A stretch of 12,081 nucleotides of DNA, from positions 1 to 12,081 of the forward strand of contig CAQNVT010000249.1 in assembly GCA_948844705.1 (NCBI GenBank), written 5' to 3'. The DNA is from an uncultured Dorea sp. GTDB lineage: Bacteria > Bacillota > Clostridia > Lachnospirales > Lachnospiraceae. A program made the translations under genes and the position numbers. Below are positions 1 to 11,467 of this stretch, piece after piece; positions within the stretch are counted from its first letter, which is position 1; each line of letters opens with the position of its first letter. A model generated the notes under the pieces. It did no database searches, was not told where the DNA came from, and saw only the letters and a list, made by a program, of their open reading frames with translations.

Positions 1-9
1 GGTATTTTC

Positions 10-59
10 AATCTGGGACGTAGTAAAATTAATTTTTCTACGTCCCAGATTCTTTTTTT
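10..59 (+). terminator. Rho-independent terminator for a plus-strand gene left of the window
   Basis: Arms at 10-23 and 38-51 are perfect 14-bp inverted repeats (AATCTGGGACGTAG and its complement). The inner segment 25-36 is itself palindromic, so the stem can continue past one T-T mismatch to a small loop. A run of seven T follows at 53-59 on the plus strand, the classic intrinsic terminator layout for transcription entering from the left. On the minus strand no T-run follows the hairpin, so it is a weaker terminator for the transporter operon. The right arm contains the stop codon and last three codons of the minus-strand BCCT gene, so hairpin and coding sequence share bases. Confidence 0.8.
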
Positions 60-1531
60 ATTGCCTTTATAAAGGCCGCGCATGCCGTAACCATTATGAA
101 TATAAAAGGAAATGCTGCTGCCAGCGATATTGTCTGAAGCGGCTTCAATCCCCCCGCCATTAAAAGGCCGACTGCCATAACCGACTGAATGATCCCCCAC
201 AGAATCTTTTTGCTGTTCGGAGGATTGATATCTCCCTTTGTCGTAAGCATAGACAGTACATATACACCGGAATTGGCCGACGTGACGAAAAACGCACAAA
301 GTGAAATAATAGCCACGATCGACAGAAGAAACCCAAGTGGATATTCGCTAAGCACTACAAAAAGTCCAACCTCCGGCGAAGCTACCGCCTCCCTCAGTGT
401 TTCCAGCGCGACAATCCCTTTCGCGCCGAGATTGATACCAAGGCTCCCGAAAACCGAACCCCACACGCAGGAAGCAAGCGCAGGAACAAGCACAACGCCG
501 AGGATAAACTCCCTGATCGTGCGTCCTTTTGAAATACGTGCCACAAACACTCCTACAAAGGGCGCCCATGCAATAAACCAAGCCCAGTAAAACAGCCTCC
601 AGCTTCCGACCCAGCTGTTATCGCCGTAGGCCCGGATCCCCAGTGCATCCTGGAGAAAATTGCTGACATACAGCCCCATTCCGTTTATAAAACCGTTTAA
701 GGTCTCAACCTTCGGGCCCACAAGAAAGCACACCGCCATCAAACCGATCGCAACATAAAGATTCATATCTGAAATGAACTTAATTCCTTTGTCGATACCG
801 GAGACCGCAGAGCCTATATAGATGACGGACACGATAACGATAATAGCAATCTGTACCACAAGCGTAGACGGAAGCCCGAACATATAGTTAAAGCCTGCAT
901 TGATCTGCAGCGTCCCGAGTCCCAGAGATGTCACGACACCCGCAACCGTCGCAAATACCGCCAGAATATCCACAAGCTTTCCAAGCCACCCTTCTGCCAG
1001 CTTCTTTCCAATCAACGGCTCCAGAATAACACTGATCAGCCCCTTTTTATTTTTACGAAACATAAAATATGCAAGCGCAAGCCCGATAACCGCATAATTG
1101 GCCCACGGCAGGATCCCCCAGTGCATAAAGAAGGATCTCATGGCAAAATCCGCCGACTCCGGAGTACCGCCCTCCATGCCTGCCGGATTCAGATAATGAG
1201 TCAGGGGCTCGGCAACTCCCCAAAATACGAGTCCGACTCCCATACCACACCCGAAAAGCAGTCCGAACCATGTCAGATTGCGGTATTCCGGTCTTGAATC
1301 GTCTTCTCCAAGACGAATCCTGCCATATTTTCCAAATGCGATATAAACGACAAATACCAAAAATACGATCATTGCCGTCATATACAGCCATCCGAAGTCC
1401 TCAGTAAGAAATGCGAACGCCGCATTTGATACAACTGTAAAGCTGTCATTGAATGCTACGGACCACACAGCCATAACAGCTACTAAAACAAGCGAAACGT
1501 AAAATACGATATTTTCTTTTTTATTCTCCAT
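38..1531 (-). CDS. BCCT-family (betaine/carnitine/choline) transporter
   Basis: A polytopic membrane protein of 497 residues, a normal length for bacterial BCCT carriers, which import quaternary ammonium compounds with sodium or by exchange. Family signatures are visible, numbered from an alternative TTG two codons upstream: the glycine motif GMGVG near residues 98-102, the first aromatic box HWGILPWANY near 139-148, and the segment FYWAWFIAWAPFVGVFVARI near 316-335 that carries the Trp-rich substrate site. A Thr-Ser pair in FFVTSANS near 419-420 matches the position of a sodium site in BetP-type carriers, which hints at sodium coupling. I chose the ATG at 1531 because AGGAG lies 7 nt upstream; the TTG at 1537 is too close to it. 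The gene begins 18 nt after the reductase selenoprotein gene, so it is very probably the last gene of that operon and supplies its substrate. Betaine is the likeliest substrate; carnitine, choline or sarcosine are not excluded. Confidence 0.93.
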   Translation of the reverse strand: MENKKENIVFYVSLVLVAVMAVWSVAFNDSFTVVSNAAFAFLTEDFGWLYMTAMIVFLVFVVYIAFGKYGRIRLGEDDSRPEYRNLTWFGLLFGCGMGVGLVFWGVAEPLTHYLNPAGMEGGTPESADFAMRSFFMHWGILPWANYAVIGLALAYFMFRKNKKGLISVILEPLIGKKLAEGWLGKLVDILAVFATVAGVVTSLGLGTLQINAGFNYMFGLPSTLVVQIAIIVIVSVIYIGSAVSGIDKGIKFISDMNLYVAIGLMAVCFLVGPKVETLNGFINGMGLYVSNFLQDALGIRAYGDNSWVGSWRLFYWAWFIAWAPFVGVFVARISKGRTIREFILGVVLVPALASCVWGSVFGSLGINLGAKGIVALETLREAVASPEVGLFVVLSEYPLGFLLSIVAIISLCAFFVTSANSGVYVLSMLTTKGDINPPNSKKILWGIIQSVMAVGLLMAGGLKPLQTISLAAAFPFIFIMVTACAAFIKAIKKESGT

Positions 1532-1549
1532 ATCCAATCTCCTGACCTG

Positions 1550-2854
1550 CTATACACGGAATACGGTCTGCTCTTTTACATCGGTCGCCAAAGCCTCCAG
1601 CGCAACCTTAGTTCTGTGATAACGAAGCTTCCATTGATCTTCCCTCGATGTCCCCGGGTCACCCAGCGGATATGGAATAGATATCATAGGAACAATTCTG
1701 TTTGAACCTACCGTCTTTGCTACCGGAATCAGATTACACATCTGCACGATCGGGAAGCCGGCCCTCTCGATCTCTTTTACCATCGTTGCACCGCAACGAG
1801 TACAGGTGCCTCATGTGCTGACCATGATAACCGCATCTACATTGTCCTCCTGGAAATACGGAACCATTTCCTTCGCCATTCTCCGGGCCTCTGCCTCCGT
1901 CGTTCCTGTTCCTACCGTCGTATAGAAATACGGATGAAGGCTTCCGAAAAACTCTTCCTTTTCCAGCACCTTAAGGGCATCTACCGGCGTGATTACATTA
2001 GGGTCGGCATCCGCCGCCGCCGGATCAAAGCCTGCATGAATCGTCTTATATTCTCCGCCCTTTAAGGCTTCCGTATCCGAAATATCATATCTGCCCCAGC
2101 GGGTTGCGGAGGCTGACTGGATGCGGTCCGGATTATCTGCCGGTACGATTCCGCCGGTGTTCACAAGGGCGATCTTTGCCTTCTTTAAGTCCTTAACTGC
2201 CGGAGCAATCGGAACCATGTCCCTCTTCGGAATCGGAAGCTCCGTCTCAAACGGCTCGCCGTTCAGCTTCTTAATCAGCATATCGATCATACGCTCGGAA
2301 GCCGGCTTTCCGTCCGAAAGCCATGTCTGATGACGAATCCCCCTGGCAAAATATCCTTCCTCGTCGGCGCTTCCTACCGGCTCCCCGTTTAACAGCTTAT
2401 TGGCGACCCTTGCCATCGCCTTAACATCCTTTCTCATCTTGGATGCGATATTACCGCCCTGCAAAATATACATGTCCTTTTTAAACATATCGACACCCGG
2501 AGTTTCGCTGTTCATGGAGGTCACGACCGGTACGCCGAATTTTTCCTTCACCGCCTTGCAGATCGTACCGCACGCCACCGTGTAACGTCCCGCCTGGAAT
2601 GCCGGTCCTGCAAGAAAAATATCAAATTCTTTGCCCTCAAGCATACCAAGGATCTCTGCAACCGCCTCCTCTGTATTAGAACCCATATAATTATCGCCGC
2701 AGATAATCGTATGCGTCACCTCTGCATCAAGCTCCTTTGCAAACTGCATTGCCGGGCCGATCTGCGCTTCATGAATCTGAGGGGAGATTCCTGCCTGCTC
2801 CTCTCCGCCGATCTGTCCGAAAAACTGATTTACATATATAACCGCCTTTTTCAT
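1550..2854 (-). CDS. grdH: Glycine/sarcosine/betaine reductase component B, selenoprotein subunit (selenocysteine at UGA 1811-1813)
   Basis: A 434-residue selenoprotein if the in-frame TGA at 1811-1813 is read as selenocysteine (residue 348). Without readthrough it would be two fragments. The context reads STUGTCTRCGATMVKEIER, the U-x-x-C-x-x-C redox motif of the GrdB/GrdF/GrdH family. The full length fits that family, and the frame continues seamlessly for 86 codons past the TGA. In the known pathway this cytoplasmic subunit activates the amino-acid-derived substrate and passes a carboxymethyl group to the selenol of GrdA. GrdC/GrdD then release acetyl phosphate. ATG 2854 is preferred over GTG 2857 because GGAGGTGA ends 6 nt before it. 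The gene follows the alpha/beta subunit gene by 16 nt and precedes the BCCT gene by 18 nt. Choosing grdH (betaine) over grdF (sarcosine) or grdB (glycine) is inference from the transporter and the absence of grdA/C/D; membership of the family itself is near certain. Confidence 0.93.
1783..1799 (-). promoter_or_regulatory. Bacterial SECIS hairpin for selenocysteine insertion
   Basis: In the mRNA the arms UCGUUGC and GCAACGA form a perfect 7-bp stem closed by the triloop GGU. The loop begins 18 nt after the UGA at 1811-1813. Known bacterial SECIS elements are short stem-loops inside the coding sequence just after the UGA, with a small loop carrying a G in its first two positions, and are bound by SelB. 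This hairpin meets that description. It also codes for residues of the conserved TRCGAT segment, so structure and protein sequence are constrained together. Confidence 0.85.
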
Positions 2855-2870
2855 CACATCTCACCTCCGT

Positions 2871-4196
2871 CTAAAATTCCTTCATAGTTTTCGGAGACCA
2901 TCCGCATACCTGGTCGCCGCAGAACATCGAGTTGTTTTCCATAATAATCGATCCGTCTTCCCTCACGGACGGCCCTAATATCTCATCATCTGCCCATCCG
3001 CCTGACAAGCCGTCTCTTGCAAGCGCCTGAAGCTCACCTAATACGGTTTCCATCGGAGGCAGCTCAATCAGCTGAGATACATTTCCGCAGGATACGATTG
3101 CATCACATTTCTCATCCAGCGTTACAAGAGGCTGGGATTGTCCGTCACGCCCGGTACACTCATTCGTAATACCTACCGTCTTAACACCCGCATTCTCAAG
3201 CGCCACGATACATCCTACAAAATCGGCATCCGGATTGCCATATCCTTCCTCTGCCACGACCGCTCCGTCTGCACCAAGACTTTTTGCGATCTGCGCCACA
3301 AAAAGAGCCGCTCTTTCCTTCTGCTCCAATGCAACATTTAAGTTAGACATAATGACTCCCAGGAAATTAATCGTCTTTCCATGCTCTCCGTAAAGCGCCT
3401 TAATATTCGGGCAATTCTGGAAATCATAGGTGGACCATTTTGAAGATACCGGCATAAAGCTTCCCGATACCATCGCACCGTCAAGGATTTCATTTGGATG
3501 CATCACAGTCGGAACGACATGATTCATATCCCACCCGTATACAAGATCGTTATATCCCATCTCCTCCATCTGGGACTGCGGCTGCATTACATATACAACT
3601 GACGGGAGCTTCTCTGTCTCAGGGCCGCGTCTGATCATCGCCCCAAGCTCATAGACCTCTGTCTCCTCCGGGGTAAGCTCCTTAACACAGGCGCCGATAT
3701 ACTCTGCAAGCTTATGCCCTGCTCTTCTCAACGCATCATTTTTCTTCTGCTGTTCATTTCTTTCAAATTCTTCATTCGTATCCGCGACAAGAACAATATT
3801 ATTAAGCTGTCCGAAATATGTGTACTTCTGTCCCTCCCCGCTCATATCGATCACACCGTCCTGGAAACCGCCCCAGTGTCTGCCTGCTACAAGGACACTG
3901 CAGTTTTTAAGCGCATAGGTTACGCCTTCCCCTGCCTTTGCAAGATCTCCCGTATAACCGGGGAAAATGCTCCTCCCGTCCGGGCGAATCCTTGGTTCAA
4001 TTGCCTCCTTTACGGGACACAGCCGAATCTTATCTCCCGGCTTTGCGATATAGAGCTCCGCCTCCGTGATCCTGTCATCCCCGCGTACAAACTGAAGTGC
4101 TTCCTCCTTATTGATCATAAGCACTCCGTCCTTCAAGGATAATTCATTTCCAAAAACGATATCCTTTACATAGAAATTGCCAATCTCCAGCCTCAT
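2871..4196 (-). CDS. grdI: Glycine/sarcosine/betaine reductase component B, alpha/beta proprotein
   Basis: A 441-residue cytoplasmic proprotein of the GrdE/GrdG/GrdI family. In this family the chain is cleaved next to a cysteine into two subunits, the cysteine becoming an N-terminal carbonyl-type (pyruvoyl) group used to bind the substrate amine. The segment YDFQNCPNIKALYGEHG near residues 257-273 holds the best Asn-Cys candidate (Asn261-Cys262); its position gives fragments of roughly 260 and 180 residues. The C-terminal NSMFCGDQVCGWSPKTMKEF is also family-like. I chose the ATG at 4196 because AAGGAGG lies 6 nt upstream and the protein then starts MRLEIGNFYVKDIVFG. The frame is open further upstream, but that extension would run into the promoter -10 box. 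First gene of a three-gene operon with the selenoprotein subunit and a BCCT carrier. Assignment to betaine (grdI) rather than sarcosine (grdG) is inference from the carrier. Confidence 0.92.
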   Translation of the reverse strand: MRLEIGNFYVKDIVFGNELSLKDGVLMINKEEALQFVRGDDRITEAELYIAKPGDKIRLCPVKEAIEPRIRPDGRSIFPGYTGDLAKAGEGVTYALKNCSVLVAGRHWGGFQDGVIDMSGEGQKYTYFGQLNNIVLVADTNEEFERNEQQKKNDALRRAGHKLAEYIGACVKELTPEETEVYELGAMIRRGPETEKLPSVVYVMQPQSQMEEMGYNDLVYGWDMNHVVPTVMHPNEILDGAMVSGSFMPVSSKWSTYDFQNCPNIKALYGEHGKTINFLGVIMSNLNVALEQKERAALFVAQIAKSLGADGAVVAEEGYGNPDADFVGCIVALENAGVKTVGITNECTGRDGQSQPLVTLDEKCDAIVSCGNVSQLIELPPMETVLGELQALARDGLSGGWADDEILGPSVREDGSIIMENNSMFCGDQVCGWSPKTMKEF

Positions 4197-4259
4197 GTTT
4201 TTCCTCCTTGTCTCCCTGCTTTTATAGAGATTTTCTATTAGCATAATTTGATTTTTATT

Positions 4260-4275
4260 AAAAAGCGCGCTTATT
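4260..4275. promoter_or_regulatory. Operator palindrome 2, just downstream of the transcription start
   Basis: AAAAAGCGCGCTTATT is the exact inverted copy of the 16-bp sequence at 4300-4315, with the same AAGCGCGCTT core (4263-4272). The two core centres are exactly 40 bp apart, close to a whole number of helical turns. It falls roughly at +10 to +25 of the predicted transcript, so a repressor on both sites would clamp the start region. Confidence 0.68.
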
Positions 4276-4291
4276 ACATATCTATAAAAAG

Positions 4292-4320
4292 AATATAACA
4301 ATAAGCGCGCTTTTTGTCAA
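4292..4320 (-). promoter_or_regulatory. Sigma-A-type promoter of the grdI-grdH-BCCT operon
   Basis: On the minus strand TTGACA (4315-4320) and TATATT (4292-4297) are separated by exactly 17 bp. The -35 box is perfect consensus and the -10 box matches at five of six bases. Transcription would begin near 4285, giving a leader of about 90 nt before the ATG at 4196. A promoter this strong would be expected to need repression, which fits the palindromes overlapping it. Confidence 0.8.
4300..4315. promoter_or_regulatory. Operator palindrome 1, inside the promoter spacer
   Basis: AATAAGCGCGCTTTTT lies between the -35 and -10 boxes of the grdI promoter. Its core AAGCGCGCTT (4303-4312) is a perfect 10-bp palindrome, and two more base pairs match beyond a single mismatch on each side. 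Size and placement are typical of a TetR-family operator, where bound repressor blocks RNA polymerase. The divergent TetR gene at 4524 is the natural candidate; the pairing is inferred. Confidence 0.7.
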
Positions 4321-4523
4321 TATGTTTTTTATAAATATAGAATAAATCTATATATCCTGAATACCCGATTGCCTATTACTCAGCCGAAGCATTCTTATTG
4401 TCAACAGGAAAATTTGCTATCCCCTGAATTAAGTGGTAAAATTGTTACTGTAAACGGAAATATAAATTGTATTCTGGGGAATGCTCTCACAAAAAGCCAA
4501 AAAAGAAAGGAATCTATATATCT

Positions 4524-5177
4524 ATGAGTAACACAAATAATGACAAAGAAATTTTAAAGCGGCAGAACCGGATCCGGTTCATTCAGGCCGCGCAGGAACT
4601 GATTGAATGTGAAGGCCCCGAAAACGCCTCCATACGCAAGATCGCAGAACGGGCAGGATTTCATAATTCTACGATCTATCTGTATTTTGAAGATGTGGAT
4701 CAGCTGATCCTCCTTGCTTCCCTCAAGTATTTTAATGAATACAGCAGGGCACTGTCCGAATTAAGTACCAGGGAGCTTACTCCGTCCGAGAAATTCATGA
4801 CGATCTGGAGCTTTTTCGCAAAAGAGGTTTTTCAAAGGCCGAAAATTTTTCACAATTTTTTCTTTGGAAAGCACAGTGATAATCTGACAAAAATCATAAG
4901 ACAATACTACGAGCTTTTCCCGGAGGAGCAGAAGGAATATTCTCCGGAAATCGAGGATATGTATTACGGGCAGGATATTAAAGAGCGCTGCCTTAAGCTG
5001 CTCATACCGCTTGCCGGTGCAGATACAAGGATCAATAAGGATAATCTGGAGCTGGTCAACGATATGATCGTCAGCTTTTTAAAATATCTTCTGGAGCAAA
5101 AATGCCAGAATCCTTCCCTGGATTCTGACATTCTTACAGATAAACTTCTTCAGATGCTAGGCTTCATTATCTCGTAA
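4524..5177 (+). CDS. TetR/AcrR-family transcriptional regulator (probable regulator of the reductase operon)
   Basis: A 217-residue protein with an N-terminal TetR-type DNA-binding domain: the segment ASIRKIAERAGFHNSTIYLY at about residues 35-54 is the helix-turn-helix, followed by FEDVDQL, the usual start of the next helix. The remaining 150 or so residues are a helical ligand-binding region that I cannot assign to a ligand. I chose ATG 4524 because AAAGGA lies about 12 nt upstream and the protein then has a normal TetR N-terminus; an upstream in-frame start at 4467 would add 19 Lys-rich residues without a good ribosome site. It is divergent from grdI, whose promoter carries two palindromes, so local control of the reductase operon is the simplest reading. 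Its last 11 bases overlap the 3' end of the convergent DegV gene. Confidence 0.88.
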   Translation: MSNTNNDKEILKRQNRIRFIQAAQELIECEGPENASIRKIAERAGFHNSTIYLYFEDVDQLILLASLKYFNEYSRALSELSTRELTPSEKFMTIWSFFAKEVFQRPKIFHNFFFGKHSDNLTKIIRQYYELFPEEQKEYSPEIEDMYYGQDIKERCLKLLIPLAGADTRINKDNLELVNDMIVSFLKYLLEQKCQNPSLDSDILTDKLLQMLGFIIS

Positions 5178-6018
5178 AACCTGCAATTCCAAAGGCTCCC
5201 GGTCCTCCGTGCGAAGTGATGACGCCGCCTGTTTTTACCCAGGTAACCTCCTTAATCCCGCACGCGAGGGCTGTTTTTTCCGCCTCTTTTATAATGTCCT
5301 CCTCAAGCCCCGGCGTCCGGATCAGCCACAGTCTGGAGGTCTTAAGGCCCTTTTCCTCAATATAATCCTTTACAAGCTGCGGTATGATCTTTTTCATGCT
5401 TCCTCTGTGCTTCTTCGTAGCCTGAAGATAACCGTCCAGTATCTCAATCCTTGGATGAATCCGAAGAAGGGCACCGCACAGGGCCGCGGCATTGCTCACT
5501 CTTCCTCCCGCGCGCAAAAACTCCAGCGTATCCGGCACAAAACACATGCTCACGTTTTCAGATATCTCCTTTGCCTTCTCTGAAGCCTCTTTTATATTCC
5601 ACTCCGGATGCTCCTTTAAAAGCTCCGCCATCGTGACCACAACCGCATATTGTCCCGCCGATACCTGTTTTGTATCAACGCTTATGACATACTCTCTGTT
5701 CTGGGCCGCGATCTGTGCGCTCTGATAGGAGCATGTCGTAACAGAAGAATAAGCAAGATACAAAATCTGGCTGTCCGGATTTTCCGCATGGATCCGGTCA
5801 AATATATTCTCAAAATCCTCCGGCACGCAGCCGCTTGTCTTCGGAAGTCTCCCTGTATTCTTATAATAGCTTACGATCTCCTCTGACGGGAATGAAGCGT
5901 CATCCCTCGTCTCCTCGCCGAATGATACATGCATCGGCACAATATATATCCCGTACTGACGGGCAACCTCCTCCGGAATATCCGAGCCCGTCTCGGCAAG
6001 CAATACAATTTTTCCCAT
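5167..6018 (-). CDS. DegV-family (FakB-like) fatty-acid-binding protein
   Basis: A 283-residue soluble protein of normal DegV length. In characterised members (FakB) the protein carries a fatty acid in a buried pocket and presents it to a separate kinase, FakA, which is not in this window. Visible family features are the N-terminal AETGSDIP, TSGCVPEDF at 61-69 (usually TSQPS in relatives), YSSVTTCSYQSA at 90-101, FLRAGGRVSNAAAL at 167-180 with Arg173, and the C-terminal HGGPGAFGIAGF at 270-281. Thr61, Ser92 and His270 fall where relatives bind the lipid carboxylate. I chose ATG 6018 because AAGGAG lies about 7 nt upstream; earlier Met codons lack this. Divergent from a second TetR-type gene and tail-to-tail with the first, so it is probably a single-gene transcript. 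Its physiological ligand cannot be read from the sequence. Confidence 0.93.
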   Translation of the reverse strand: MGKIVLLAETGSDIPEEVARQYGIYIVPMHVSFGEETRDDASFPSEEIVSYYKNTGRLPKTSGCVPEDFENIFDRIHAENPDSQILYLAYSSVTTCSYQSAQIAAQNREYVISVDTKQVSAGQYAVVVTMAELLKEHPEWNIKEASEKAKEISENVSMCFVPDTLEFLRAGGRVSNAAALCGALLRIHPRIEILDGYLQATKKHRGSMKKIIPQLVKDYIEEKGLKTSRLWLIRTPGLEEDIIKEAEKTALACGIKEVTWVKTGGVITSHGGPGAFGIAGFTR

Positions 6019-6764: not shown

Positions 6765-8435
6765 TTATGCATAGAGCACCGCCATGCACTCATATGGCTC
6801 AAGGACTGCGGAATGCCCAAGCTCTGTCCGTCCATAATTGGAGATCAGCACATCGCCTTCCTCTCCCATAAGCTCCTCCGGCACCTCGTATGCCATCTCT
6901 TTCTCTGCAAAATTGCAGATCACCAGAAGTCTCTGTCCTTCATAGGAACGCATATAGACATACAATTCCTCGCTGTCCGGAATCAGAAGCTTATAGTCCC
7001 CGTAAACAATGATCTCATGCTCTTTACGCAGCCTGATCAGCTTCTGATAATAATGGAATACGGAATCCTCTCTTTCCATCTGTTCCTTCGCATTGATCTC
7101 TTTATAATCAGGGTTTACCGCGATCCACGGAGTACCTGACGTAAAGCCTGCCTGACGGCTGTCATCCCACTGCATGGGGGTTCTTGCGTTATCCCTTCCC
7201 TTATAGCTTATATAATCAAACATGTCCTCCGGGGACACAATCTTTTTTTCTGTCAGCTCATGATAAGCATTAATGCTTTCAATATCACGGAATTCGTCCA
7301 GCGACTGAAAAGGATAATTCGTCATGCCAAGCTCTTCGCCCTGATAGATATACGGCGTCCCCTGCATCATATGAAGACAGGTTCCCAGAAGTTTCGCGGA
7401 ACGCTCCCGGTACTCCTTTGTATCATTTCCGATACGCGAAAGCATCCTTGGCTGGTCATGATTACACCAGTACAGACTGTTCCATGCCTTGCCCGCAAGC
7501 TCTGTCTGCCACTTGCTCATAACAGCTTTAAGCTCTGTAAGTCTGATCTTCTCATGATTCCACTTAAAGTTTTCGCCGCCGTCAAGATCCATATGCTCAA
7601 ACTGAAATACCATATTGAGCTCGGTGCCCTCTGCGGACGCGTATTTTTTCGCCTCCTCCACCGTAACACCGGAGCATTCTCCCACCGTGATCAAATCATA
7701 CTTTGAGAGAACCTCCCTGTTCATCTCTTTAAGGTAATCATGTACATGGGGTCCGTTGGCACAGCCATGATCTCCATATCCGCTCCTTCCTACCGGCCCG
7801 TCGGGAAGCCCCGGACGCTTGGAAATCAGGCTTATCACGTCCATGCGGAAGCCGTCGATCCCCTTCTCGCACCACCAGGTCATCATATCAAAGACCTTTT
7901 TTCTGACCTCCTTGTTATCCCAGTTGAGATCTGGCTGCTTCTCAGAAAAAAGGTGAAGAAAATACTGATCTGTCTTTTCATCATATTTCCATGCCGAACC
8001 GCCGAAGCAGGCTCCCCAGTTATTCGGCTCCTTTCCGCCTTTTGCATCTCTCCATATATAATAATCCCGATAGGGATTGTCCTTTGATTTCCTGCTCTCC
8101 ACAAACCATGCATGCTCATCGGAGGTGTGATTTACAACCAGATCCATCATAATCTTAATACCAAGCTCATGGGCTCTCTTAAGCATACGGTCATAATCCT
8201 CCATTGTCCCGAATTCCGCCATGATCCTGCGGTAATCACTGATATCGTACCCATTATCGTCATTCGGCGACTGATATACCGGAGAGAGCCAGATCACATC
8301 GATTCCCAGCTCCTTAAGATATTCTAATTTACCGGTGATCCCGTTAAGATCCCCGATCCCGTCCCCGTTACTGTCACAAAAGCTTCTTGGATATATCTGA
8401 TATACAACGCTTTCCTTCCACCATGCTTTTTTCAT
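6765..8435 (-). CDS. GH13 alpha-glucosidase, oligo-1,6-glucosidase (MalL-like)
   Basis: A 556-residue cytoplasmic glycoside hydrolase of family GH13 (subfamily 31 type), normal length. It should release glucose from the non-reducing ends of short alpha-glucosides such as isomaltose. The (beta/alpha)8 barrel residues are present: Asp199 nucleophile in GIDGFRMDVI, Glu253 acid/base in TVGECSG, and Asp327 in NHDQPR. Val200 directly after the nucleophile is the residue linked to alpha-1,6 preference in this family. D21-N23-D25-I27-D29 in DSNGDGIGD matches the calcium loop. A C-terminal beta domain follows GRDNARTPMQWD. No signal peptide, so the sugars must be imported. I chose ATG 8435 because GGAGG lies 8 nt upstream and the protein then begins MKKAWWKESVVYQIYPRSF, as in relatives; an ATG at 8462 would overlap the previous stop. 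It lies 26 nt after the AraC 1 gene and is probably cotranscribed with it. Sucrose or trehalose-6-phosphate activity is possible but less supported. Confidence 0.95.
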   Translation of the reverse strand: MKKAWWKESVVYQIYPRSFCDSNGDGIGDLNGITGKLEYLKELGIDVIWLSPVYQSPNDDNGYDISDYRRIMAEFGTMEDYDRMLKRAHELGIKIMMDLVVNHTSDEHAWFVESRKSKDNPYRDYYIWRDAKGGKEPNNWGACFGGSAWKYDEKTDQYFLHLFSEKQPDLNWDNKEVRKKVFDMMTWWCEKGIDGFRMDVISLISKRPGLPDGPVGRSGYGDHGCANGPHVHDYLKEMNREVLSKYDLITVGECSGVTVEEAKKYASAEGTELNMVFQFEHMDLDGGENFKWNHEKIRLTELKAVMSKWQTELAGKAWNSLYWCNHDQPRMLSRIGNDTKEYRERSAKLLGTCLHMMQGTPYIYQGEELGMTNYPFQSLDEFRDIESINAYHELTEKKIVSPEDMFDYISYKGRDNARTPMQWDDSRQAGFTSGTPWIAVNPDYKEINAKEQMEREDSVFHYYQKLIRLRKEHEIIVYGDYKLLIPDSEELYVYMRSYEGQRLLVICNFAEKEMAYEVPEELMGEEGDVLISNYGRTELGHSAVLEPYECMAVLYA

Positions 8436-8461
8436 CCTCTTATCCTCCTTTGCCAAGTTCA

Positions 8462-9292
8462 TTACTGGTACAGCTCCTGCATAACCCTCTCCTTGTATTT
8501 TTGTCGGTATTCACTGGGAGATATTCCGTATACTCCCTTAAATGCTCTGGAAAAATGCAGAAGATTCGGATAGCCCACCAGTGCTCCTATATCCCCGACA
8601 GACAGATTCCCCGTCCGAAGCTCGGCCGCCGCCTTCTCCATCCGGAAACGGATCAAAAACTGCTGAGGCGACTGCCCGGTAACCGACTTAAATATTTTCC
8701 CGAAATAGCTTCTGTCGAGCCAGCAGCGTCTTGCCAGCTCCTCCACCGATATATGCCTGGAGTAATTCTGTTCTATATAGCGGACCGCACCTTCCACATA
8801 GGTTTCGCTGTTTCTTCCCGCTGTCATCTGTCCCTTGAACCGAGACGTTCTTACAAGGCAATCCATAAACAGATACATATATCCTGTCATCTTAAGCGGA
8901 CATTCCTCCCCGCTCTTCACAAGATCAAGCATACTGCGAAGCAGCTCATCGCCCTGTTCCTGACTCTCCGGCATATAAACCGGCCGATTCTCCGATAATC
9001 CCGAAAGCTTCGTGTACTCTCCCGCACGAACGCCTCCGAACTCGACCCAGATATAATCCCATACGTCCTCTGAGAAAAGCTGAAATTCGTCTTCCTTCCC
9101 GGGTACGATTAAATATCCCATTTTCTCAGACAGTGTGTAGACAAGAGTTTCCTTTTCCTCTTTCTCTACCCGCAAAACTCCTTTTCCTGAAACAATGTAA
9201 CAAAAAAGATAATGACCGCCAGATGTATACTGCTTTATCTCCCACGGACACTTCTTTTTTTCATACCCGCATCGATAGATCAATAAATCCAT
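8462..9292 (-). CDS. AraC-family transcriptional regulator 1 (upstream of the glucosidase)
   Basis: A 276-residue regulator with an N-terminal cupin-type sugar-sensing domain (about residues 1-100) and two helix-turn-helix motifs in the last 100 or so residues: SVEELARRCWLDRSYFGKIF and the second motif containing SVGDIGALVGYPNLLHFSRA, ending FKGVYGISPSEYRQKYK. This is the layout of AraC regulators that activate carbohydrate genes. ATG 9292 is preferred and gives MDLLIYRCGYEK, aligning with its paralogue; AGGAG lies 11 nt upstream. A GTG at 9304 is the alternative but overlaps the ribosome site. The gene is first in a two-gene unit with the glucosidase, behind a promoter flanked by LacI-type operators. 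The C-terminal domain is strikingly similar to that of the AraC protein encoded at 10518-11372. Confidence 0.93.
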   Translation of the reverse strand: MDLLIYRCGYEKKKCPWEIKQYTSGGHYLFCYIVSGKGVLRVEKEEKETLVYTLSEKMGYLIVPGKEDEFQLFSEDVWDYIWVEFGGVRAGEYTKLSGLSENRPVYMPESQEQGDELLRSMLDLVKSGEECPLKMTGYMYLFMDCLVRTSRFKGQMTAGRNSETYVEGAVRYIEQNYSRHISVEELARRCWLDRSYFGKIFKSVTGQSPQQFLIRFRMEKAAAELRTGNLSVGDIGALVGYPNLLHFSRAFKGVYGISPSEYRQKYKERVMQELYQ

Positions 9293-9370
9293 AAAGCTTA
9301 CCACTCCTTAATTTTATTAAATTGTGTACTCCGTCGAACAATAAATGCCCGACACGCGTAAGTTACCCAG

Positions 9371-9384
9371 GTTTTGCGCATAAC
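9371..9384. promoter_or_regulatory. LacI-type operator, downstream site
   Basis: GTTTTGCGCATAAC matches the perfect palindrome at 9432-9445 in 13 of 14 bases and keeps the central TGCGCA. It lies at about +9 to +22 relative to the predicted start of the AraC 1-glucosidase transcript, a position where a bound LacI-family repressor blocks transcription. Confidence 0.72.
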
Positions 9385-9399
9385 TATTTTCTAGAAAAA

Positions 9400-9428
9400 A
9401 TTATAGCTTAGAAAAAGCCGTTTTTCAA
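9400..9428 (-). promoter_or_regulatory. Sigma-A-type promoter for AraC 1 and the glucosidase
   Basis: On the minus strand TTGAAA (9423-9428) and a consensus TATAAT (9400-9405) are exactly 17 bp apart. Transcription should start near 9393, leaving a leader of about 100 nt before ATG 9292. Around the start lies the 12-bp palindrome TTTTCTAGAAAA (9387-9398). The promoter is bracketed by two LacI-type operators. Confidence 0.8.
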
Positions 9429-9431
9429 GAG

Positions 9432-9445
9432 GTTTTGCGCAAAAC
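9432..9445. promoter_or_regulatory. LacI-type operator, upstream site (perfect palindrome)
   Basis: GTTTTGCGCAAAAC is a perfect 14-bp palindrome with a central CpG, the hallmark of LacI-family operators. It sits four bases upstream of the -35 box, 61 bp centre-to-centre from the second site at 9371-9384. The LacI-family gene ending at 9485, only 40 bp away, is the natural candidate to bind it. Confidence 0.78.
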
Positions 9446-9484
9446 GTCACATTGTACAATATCCGGATTTTGCTTTTATTCAAT

Positions 9485-10495
9485 TTACCGGTTTTTTACG
9501 GAGTCACGCAAAACAAGCGTCACCGGAAGTCTGTCGGTCATGGAGACCCTGCTCTCCCCCTGTATAAAATCAAACAGCTTCTTCACTGCATACTGCGCCT
9601 TCTTTTCCACGTCCTGATGCACCGTCGTAAGGCGGGGCCTGCACATTGCGGCGCTTTCCGTGTCATCAAAGCCTGCCACGGACAGATCTTCCGGCACGTT
9701 GATTCCCGCATCGCTTAATAAAGCGATCGCCTCCACCGCATAATAGTCAGACGCAAAAAACATTGCATCATACTCCTTTAAAATTCTGTCAAGATGCTTC
9801 CTGTAGTACTCCGTTCTCGCCGCTCTTTCCTCTGGAATTATTATATGACGCACACACGCCTTCTTAGCACCGTACTCTTCACATGCCTGGCATACACCCT
9901 TCCACCGTTCATGATCGACGCCCACATCATTATCTGCCGCAAACCCAATCCTCCTATGTCCCGATTCCAGCAGATATTTTGTCATAAGGTAACCGCCGTT
10001 TTTATCGTCCAGACCTACGTTTGCCATTCTCTGGTCCCTGTAATACACATCGATGGACACGATGGGCACATGACAGCTTCCCTGAAGCTTTATATTGTCC
10101 GCAGTCCCAAATCCAAGCGTGATCAGCCCCTCCACGTTCCAGGTGGCCGCAAATTGGATTCCGTCCTCCGGTGTTGCCGTAAAATGCAAAAGCATATAGT
10201 AATTTTTCTTATATATCTCCTGCTCCAGCGAGCGGAGCAGTATATTCGCAAAGGAATGCCCCTCTGCATGATGCTTTTCTCCGTCCGCCTCAAAAACAAG
10301 GACACCGATTACTCTCGTACCTCCTCCTGCCAGCATCCTTGCTCCCATGCTCGGAACATAATCCAACTCCTTCAGAAGCTTTTCGATCCTTTCTACCGTT
10401 TCCTCCGATACCTTCTTTTTGTTACCGTGAATCACATTTGACACGGTCGTAGGGCTCACGCCCGCTTTCTCTGCAATATCCTTGATACGTATCAT
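9485..10495 (-). CDS. LacI-family transcriptional regulator
   Basis: A 336-residue repressor of normal LacI length. The N-terminal helix-turn-helix MIRIKDIAEKAGVSPTTVSN (1-20) is followed by the hinge YVPSMGARMLAGG with the Leu55 that normally inserts into a central CpG. The periplasmic-binding-protein-like sensor domain follows, with VGLDDKNGGYLMTKYLLESG, HRRIGFAAD, and AGFDDTESAAMCRPRLTTVH near the C-terminus. The effector sugar cannot be told from sequence alone. I prefer ATG 10495 over GTG 10507; GAGGTGA lies about 8 nt upstream of the ATG. It begins 22 nt after the AraC 2 gene, so the two are probably cotranscribed. The palindromes just beyond its 3' end, in front of AraC 1 and the glucosidase, fit LacI-family operators. 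Confidence 0.95.
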   Translation of the reverse strand: MIRIKDIAEKAGVSPTTVSNVIHGNKKKVSEETVERIEKLLKELDYVPSMGARMLAGGGTRVIGVLVFEADGEKHHAEGHSFANILLRSLEQEIYKKNYYMLLHFTATPEDGIQFAATWNVEGLITLGFGTADNIKLQGSCHVPIVSIDVYYRDQRMANVGLDDKNGGYLMTKYLLESGHRRIGFAADNDVGVDHERWKGVCQACEEYGAKKACVRHIIIPEERAARTEYYRKHLDRILKEYDAMFFASDYYAVEAIALLSDAGINVPEDLSVAGFDDTESAAMCRPRLTTVHQDVEKKAQYAVKKLFDFIQGESRVSMTDRLPVTLVLRDSVKNR

Positions 10496-10517
10496 CTGTC
10501 CTTTCACCTCTTATCCT

Positions 10518-11372
10518 TTATCTGTCTATGATCTTATTCTTCTGCCTGTATTCTCTCGGCGACATGCCGTAAACACTCTTAAATGCCCTGGAAAAATGCA
10601 GAAGGTTCGGGTATCCTACCGAGCTTCCGATATCTCCCACCGAATCATTGCTGACGATCAGCGCATCCGCTGCTTTGGTCATACGGTAATGTATCAAAAA
10701 ATCCTGGGGAGACTGTCCTACTACCTTTTTAAATACTTTTCCGAAATAGCTCCTGTCAAGCTGGCACTTTTTAGCAATGTCTTCTATCGTAATATTTTTT
10801 TCATAATTATGTTCAATGTATACGACGGCCTCACGCGCATAAAATTCACTGAGCTTTCCTCCCTGCAGCTCTTTTTTAGACGAAGAATACTTGATCAGGC
10901 AGTCTACAAAAAGATACAAATTTCCGATGAGTTCTATAGAAGACGCATTCTGGCTCTTTACAATCGTCATCATCCGTTCCTGTATATTCCTCCCGTATTC
11001 CGGATCAGAGGGAATATATACCGGATTTTTATGGGAAAGTCCGGCGAGCTCCACATATTCCTTTGCCCGAAGTCCCCCGAATTCGATCCATACATATTCC
11101 CATGGATGGTTCTTGTCTGCATAATATGTATTGACGTATCCAGGCTCTATGATAAAGCCGTTTCCCCCGGTAATATAATAGGTAGACACATTTGCCTTTT
11201 CGTCGTTTGCATGAAGACACCCTCTTCCGGAAATCACATAGTGAAAGAGATAGTTATTCCTTACATAAGGTCCGAAGGAATGCAATGATTCGCACTTTTC
11301 ATACCCATATTGGTATATTGTAAGGTCCATGAACCTCTCATCCTGAAACACTGAAAACAAATGATTCATCAT
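10518..11372 (-). CDS. AraC-family transcriptional regulator 2 (divergent from the ABC sugar-binding protein)
   Basis: A 284-residue AraC regulator: a cupin-type sensor domain carrying YLFHYVISGRG and WIEFGGLRAKEYVELAGLS, then two C-terminal helix-turn-helix motifs (TIEDIAKKCQLDRSYFGKVF and SVGDIGSSVGYPNLLHFSRA) ending SVYGMSPREYRQK. I chose ATG 11372 (MMNHLFSVFQDERFMDLTIY) because AAGGAAGGG lies about 9 nt upstream and relatives carry a similar leader; ATG 11330 is a possible shorter start. It shares a 275-bp region with the divergent sugar-binding protein gene, so activation of that transporter is the likely job. It precedes the LacI gene by 22 nt and is a clear paralogue of AraC 1. Confidence 0.93.
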   Translation of the reverse strand: MMNHLFSVFQDERFMDLTIYQYGYEKCESLHSFGPYVRNNYLFHYVISGRGCLHANDEKANVSTYYITGGNGFIIEPGYVNTYYADKNHPWEYVWIEFGGLRAKEYVELAGLSHKNPVYIPSDPEYGRNIQERMMTIVKSQNASSIELIGNLYLFVDCLIKYSSSKKELQGGKLSEFYAREAVVYIEHNYEKNITIEDIAKKCQLDRSYFGKVFKKVVGQSPQDFLIHYRMTKAADALIVSNDSVGDIGSSVGYPNLLHFSRAFKSVYGMSPREYRQKNKIIDR

Positions 11373-11467
11373 AATGCGTTGCCCTTCCTTTCTTTTTAAA
11401 TCGTTATTTTGTCCAAAAACACGTGTGTTTTTTTGTAAAATTTCACGAAAAATCAAGATTTTCTTGT

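Follow-up and report, generated by a model that had tools for sequence, protein, structure and literature searches.

The locus raises the question of whether an in-frame UGA splits a minus-strand gene into two fragments or is read as selenocysteine and, if the latter, which protein is made and how its synthesis might be controlled. Under translation table 11, the window (the whole stretch of 12,081 nucleotides analysed here, from an uncultured Dorea sp.) yields an ORF of 347 or 348 aa, depending on whether it starts at ATG 2854 or GTG 2857, and an ORF of 77 aa. When the TGA is counted as one residue, a single frame of 434 residues runs to a TAG stop codon, with U348 opening a U-x-x-C-x-x-C motif (UGTCTRC) and 86 codons beyond it. 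Translation thus confirmed what the preliminary description had noted about the position of the UGA at the start of the motif, the 86-codon tail and the 434-residue readthrough product. A tail of 258 nt was free of stops in 0.87% of 20,000 base shuffles. The full-length product matched the NCBIfam model betaine_GrdH (NF040795) over residues 3-434 with 830 bits (cut-off 775), and the general subfamily model TIGR01918 was over its cut-off as well. The sarcosine and glycine models, GrdF (557.5 bits, cut-off 800) and GrdB (504.8 bits, cut-off 602.2), stayed below theirs, and betaine_GrdH is the sole substrate-specific NCBIfam model over cut-off. The choice between GrdB, GrdF and GrdH, which had been left open earlier, is therefore decided by the model scores in favour of GrdH. 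Pfam GRDB (PF07355), a profile of 347 positions, covers residues 2-347 and stops at the UGA, and the 77-residue tail by itself scored 149.2 bits against the NCBIfam GrdH model. A sequence search of solved structures at E 0.001 returned none for GrdH. By its model scores the gene is grdH, predicted to encode the selenocysteine subunit of betaine reductase. The features of the locus are listed in Table 1.

Table 1. Features of the grdIH locus and its flanking regulatory region (window positions).
Feature	Position	Strand	Basis
grdH, predicted beta subunit of betaine reductase component B	2854-1550	-	434 aa with Sec348; NF040795, PF07355, translation
In-frame TGA, almost certainly the Sec codon, first position of UGTCTRC	1811..1813	-	translation; TGA in 78/78 related alignments
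Bacterial SECIS (SECIS_4, Rfam RF01990), a hairpin with a GGU loop	1773..1810	-	66.1 bits, gathering 38
grdI, alpha proprotein (441 aa) of betaine reductase component B	2871..4196	-	PF09338, 614.5 bits
BCCT-family transporter gene following grdH; probably imports glycine betaine	38..1531	-	PF02028
TetR-family regulator in divergent orientation; candidate repressor of grdIH-BCCT	4524..5177	+	PF00440
Promoter-like site TTGACA-N17-TATATT upstream of grdI	4292..4320	-	11/12 consensus matches
First copy of the proposed operator (+ strand, AATAAGCGCGCTTTTT)	4300..4315		perfect 16-nt inverted repeat with copy 2
Second copy of the proposed operator (+ strand, AAAAAGCGCGCTTATT)	4260..4275		start 40 nt from copy 1

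A scan of a genome collection gave 71 loci, and 78 GrdH-family alignments, two of them partial, span residue 348. All 78, at 47-91% identity, have TGA at this site, and a Cys codon was found in none of them. The objection anticipated in the preliminary description, namely that the TGA could be a recent nonsense mutation of a Cys codon, fails on this count. The Rfam search of the whole window produced a single match, SECIS_4 at 1810-1773 on the minus strand; all 38 model positions are matched, and the element departs from the printed consensus at two letters. Its hairpin, UCGUUGC-GGU-GCAACGA, begins 11 nt past the TGA and has 7 bp, and the upper stem of the Rfam model has 6 bp. The perfect 7-bp stem with a GGU loop that had been described before is thus present in the window, but only its five innermost pairs are found without exception in the relatives. 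Among 79 sequences including the window, 64 of them distinct and related by descent, so that the counts are not independent events, all 64 distinct sequences form the inner pairs (17-29 to 21-25), 56 the sixth pair (16-30) and 33 the outermost (15-31). Pair 18-28 is never broken, being U-A in 58, C-G in 4 and A-U in 2 distinct sequences, and the C-G and A-U forms alter Thr to Ala or Ser. Third-position entropy was compared over the 99 alignment columns in which 95% or more of the 76 rows of over 400 residues share the same residue. The five lowest values belong to codons 354, 356, 351, 353 and 355; codons 349, 350 and 352, directly after the UGA, rank 76, 31 and 33 of 99 and are not specially constrained.

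The folding energy was considered as proof of the SECIS and rejected, since its z of -0.79 is not significant alone: the best fold of a 47-nt stretch is a different hairpin, with 43 of 200 shuffles equally good, and in a 41-nt piece the SECIS-type fold is 0.1 kcal/mol less stable than the optimum. The case for the predicted SECIS is carried by conservation and not by energy. The rules for bacterial SECIS elements, in the passages of PMC13188914 that set them out, are an apical loop of 3-9 nt, a stem of 4-16 bp, a G in the first two loop positions, a distance of 16-37 nt from the UGA and an MFE at or below -7.5 (PMC13188914). The window hairpin agrees with each of these, with its GGU loop, 7 bp and 18 nt from UGA to loop, and the -7.5 kcal/mol of the hairpin alone is exactly at the energy limit.

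The Sec machinery was searched for in ten related genomes and 14 control genomes. The models for SelB, SelD and tRNA-Sec gave matches in all 14 controls and that for SelA in 4, and only matches over cut-off were therefore counted. SelA, SelB, SelD and tRNA-Sec were over cut-off in 10/10 relatives (the SelD of genome G003 is a fragment), and in the 14 controls SelB was over cut-off in 2, SelA in 1, SelD in 2 and tRNA-Sec in 5. GrdA with one in-frame TGA was found in 8/10 relatives and GrdC over cut-off in 9/10, and neither was found in the controls. GrdA was not found in G003 and G010, where a second search with full-length GrdA, which is uninformative when empty, was also empty. In G003, grdC is cut at the contig start, and the absence of GrdA there is thus likely an assembly loss; in G010 neither GrdA nor GrdC was found. 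Judging from these relatives, the window's own genome would also encode selABCD, grdA and grdCD. The other objection anticipated in the preliminary description, an absence of selABCD, finds no support in the ten relatives. SelD has one in-frame TGA in 9/10 relatives (e.g. loci L076 and L077), the tenth being the fragment, and in these nine it itself looks like a selenoprotein. In Hespellia stercorisuis (L007, 6662-17305, and the adjoining stretch of contig G007:C79) the betaine reductase and Sec genes form one cluster, with grdI, grdH, BCCT, trxB- and trxA-sized ORFs, grdA, grdC, a grdD-sized ORF and then selD, selA and selB on one strand; two operator-type sites lie before grdI on this contig.

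Two other readings of the UGA have to be weighed. It might be a nonsense mutation or a sequencing error in a Cys-containing gene, so that the gene would be a pseudogene or truncated, and the two ORFs obtained with table 11 are in line with this. The invariant TGA without any Cys among the related alignments, the fit of the tail alone to the GrdH model and the presence of a SECIS all argue against it, and we regard it as extremely improbable. The codon could also be read as tryptophan in a code-4-like manner, or simply be read through, without selenocysteine. Homologue P0119 (439 aa) does have Trp at the Sec position, as expected from a gene caller set to such a code, and this gene call was probably made with TGA read as Trp. 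The terminators of the ten window genes checked are TAA or TAG, never TGA, and stop usage alone is thus compatible with a tryptophan code. Against such a code speaks that TGG occurs 51 times among the internal codons of ten window genes and TGA nowhere besides the grdH site; the double-sided changes in the SECIS stem and the Sec machinery of the relatives point the same way, and we consider tryptophan or plain readthrough very unlikely. The selenocysteine reading is supported by the protein family, the SECIS family, TGA in 78/78 alignments, compensatory stem changes, third-position constraint and the Sec machinery of relatives, and the UGA is almost certainly decoded as selenocysteine. For the explanation as a whole, a betaine reductase GrdH with Sec348 specified by the SECIS, we estimate a probability of about 97%.

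Glycine betaine as the GrdH substrate is suggested by the family model and the adjoining transporter. grdI starts at ATG 4196-4194, which is preceded by AAGGAGG, and its PF09338 match spans the whole protein. The NCBIfam search of GrdI returned no GrdI model; the closest model is that of the sarcosine protein GrdG (343.8, below the cut-off of 780). The Cys of the NECTG motif, which we take to be the site of proprotein cleavage, is residue 347 counting Met, and NECTG is kept in 55/69 GrdI matches. The same place is NESTG in 7/69 and is without Cys or Ser (DEYAG, DEFPG, PEFPG) in 5/69; these variants may bear on the maturation of those proproteins. The BCCT gene is over the cut-off of TIGR00842 (482.5 versus 407.55) and just short of that of betaine_BCCT NF047988 (621.3 versus 650). 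In 65/70 related loci grdI immediately precedes grdH, and in 52/70 a BCCT gene starts at most 600 nt after grdH, with room for one in 62/70. A B subunit for sarcosine, glycine or another quaternary amine would be in keeping with the close relationship of GrdB, GrdF and GrdH and with the sarcosine-type best model of GrdI, below cut-off as it is. That only betaine_GrdH among substrate-specific models is over cut-off, and that grdH is followed by a BCCT gene in 52 of the 70 loci, makes such a substrate unlikely. We favour glycine betaine, and the grdI-grdH-BCCT operon would then combine betaine uptake with its reduction to trimethylamine.

In the proposed mechanism, SelB carrying Sec-tRNA would bind the hairpin just 3' of the UGA and direct selenocysteine into residue 348, and GrdH would partner GrdI. 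Glycine betaine imported by the BCCT transporter would be bound and split by GrdHI, with release of trimethylamine, and the two-carbon unit would pass to the selenol of GrdA and on to GrdCD to give acetyl phosphate. The gene identity, the SECIS, its conservation, the operon order and the partner genes of relatives come from the present data; established knowledge of this family supplies the chemistry, the action of SelB and the part of GrdA as carrier.

grdH is here an ordinary bacterial selenoprotein gene of a gut-type anaerobe, a Firmicute close to Lachnospiraceae, and is of a known kind that is often stored truncated, and its finding is of low surprise. In the selenoprotein list of PMC3091704, the Clostridium sticklandii GrdH (CLOST_1057) is entered with Sec352 of 440 aa. 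The window protein shares with it the NF040795 match, a similar length and about the same Sec position and, with known GrdH, the U-x-x-C-x-x-C motif, the TGA plus SECIS and the partner GrdI; no difference beyond ordinary sequence divergence was found, CLOST_1057 being compared by its published description. GrdH is treated as a selenoprotein in passages of PMC3091704 and PMC8547467, and PMC13188914 and PMC1088965, in the extracts at hand, treat GrdA and GrdB and not GrdH. GrdH represents a known betaine-to-trimethylamine route in gut and marine sediment (PMC5537630, PMC6964529, PMC8547467), and betaine reductase is one known gut route to trimethylamine, the precursor of TMAO (PMC5537630, PMC6964529). 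grdIH has also been reported to share one operon with trxA, grdA and the gene for a betaine transporter (PMC10536192). In cold-seep metagenomes, grdHI was described as clustered with the BCCT transporter gene opuD, together with shared grdABCD and thioredoxin genes (PMC8547467). The window resembles this arrangement in the clustering of grdHI with a BCCT-type betaine transporter, but it comes from a gut Lachnospiraceae relative and has a divergent TetR gene, whereas the cold-seep account, in the part that describes the cluster, names no regulator.

The remark in the preliminary description that automated annotation would truncate the protein is borne out by the databases. Among homologous proteins, 119 of the best 120 of 3569 have 346-364 aa, the length expected if cut at the UGA, and two of these whose sequences were inspected (P0002 and P0117) terminate at the Sec site. 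Surveys based on gene calls would therefore lose the catalytic end.

The less familiar part of the locus is the regulator-operator pair. The divergent TetR protein has in common with BetI, the choline-sensing TetR repressor, a TetR-type DNA-binding domain and a betaine-related neighbourhood, but it adjoins a reductase operon and reached only 36 bits with the BetI model TIGR03384 (cut-off 201.3); an assignment as BetI was rejected. Between the TetR gene and grdI lies a paired palindrome near AATAAGCGCGCTTATT. Copy 1 is inside the spacer of the grdI promoter-like site and touches the last base of its -35; this site is the best of 10 promoter-like sites in 1-5300 (7.4 expected, the scan alone being weak). 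With one mismatch allowed, the core AAGCGCGCTT occurs twice in the window versus 0.54 expected, and 20/200 shuffles reach two. In the 67 grdI-bearing relatives, the 25,243 nt upstream of grdI hold 40 exact copies of AAGCGCGCTT, compared with 3 in 935,601 nt elsewhere. At least one copy lies upstream of grdI in 24/67 relatives, two or more in 15 and none in 43/67; the spacing of the copies is 40-42 in 12 of the 15 with two or more. A relative of the TetR protein with at least 38% identity is encoded in 30 loci including the window, many of these TetR and operator loci being close kin, and it is divergent from grdI in 24/30. Of these loci, 20/30 place a CGCG core in a TTG-N3-N16-18-TA-N3-T frame (L038 in another register) and 10 do not. 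Variant sites occur as well: L016 and L058 carry TAATCGCGATTA, and L030 and L041 carry CAATCATGATTG and TAATCATGATTA. In L030 and L041 the TetR protein has a YNSAT-type stretch, which is presumably the recognition helix, instead of FHNST. The match of helix and site is not strict, since L058 combines an FHNST helix with a TCGCGA site.

The conserved palindrome pair and the divergent TetR gene suggest a dedicated repressor. The protein would bind palindromes near AATAAGCGCGCTTATT that are about 41 bp apart, one of them in the grdI promoter spacer. Regulator and operator may have changed together, with YNSAT helices going with ATCATGAT sites (two loci) and FHNST mostly with AGCGCGCT. In some gut Lachnospiraceae, control by the TetR protein may extend to the shared genes trxA-grdA-grdCD, by way of one palindrome copy in their promoter. 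As a whole, the reading that betaine reduction has its own, as yet unnamed repressor in the divergent TetR protein, acting via the paired palindrome, extending to trxA-grdA-grdCD and co-changing with its operator, appears to us reasonably probable. If true, trimethylamine formation from betaine would be switched by one ligand-sensing protein in these bacteria, and the conserved operator pair would offer a testable switch for when they turn betaine into trimethylamine. No regulator of betaine reductase was evident in the titles and abstract openings of the papers listed, which is a weak negative.

The sites at the trxA-grdA loci are fewer. Among nine grdA loci from eight relatives, a site lies about 500 nt upstream of grdA in two (G002, with one mismatch, and G004). 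Of eight longer regions, L105, L106 and L108 have a site in the trxB-trxA interval; L108 was chosen for its extra site, and without it the count before grdA is 2/8 relatives. L107, L109, L110 and L111 have no operator site, and the sole site of L112 is before grdI. An operator before grdA in every relative was therefore rejected, given only 2/8 relatives and the picked L108. The NCBIfam gene order of L105 is an alpha-subunit gene cut by the stretch end, a grdB/grdF-type gene (to its UGA), trxB, trxA, grdA, grdC and grdD; trxB and trxA of L106 and L108 were assigned by like order and size. The L105 site fills the spacer of TTGCAA-N17-TATAAT. Searching whole genomes with two mismatches allowed gave a mixed picture, the reversed control outnumbering the pattern in 2/16 genomes (G002 and G016), and only sites at promoters were therefore used. 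Elsewhere in the window, positions 6765-11456 hold an alpha-amylase family gene, two AraC-type regulators and one LacI-type regulator, apparently a separate sugar-utilisation region.
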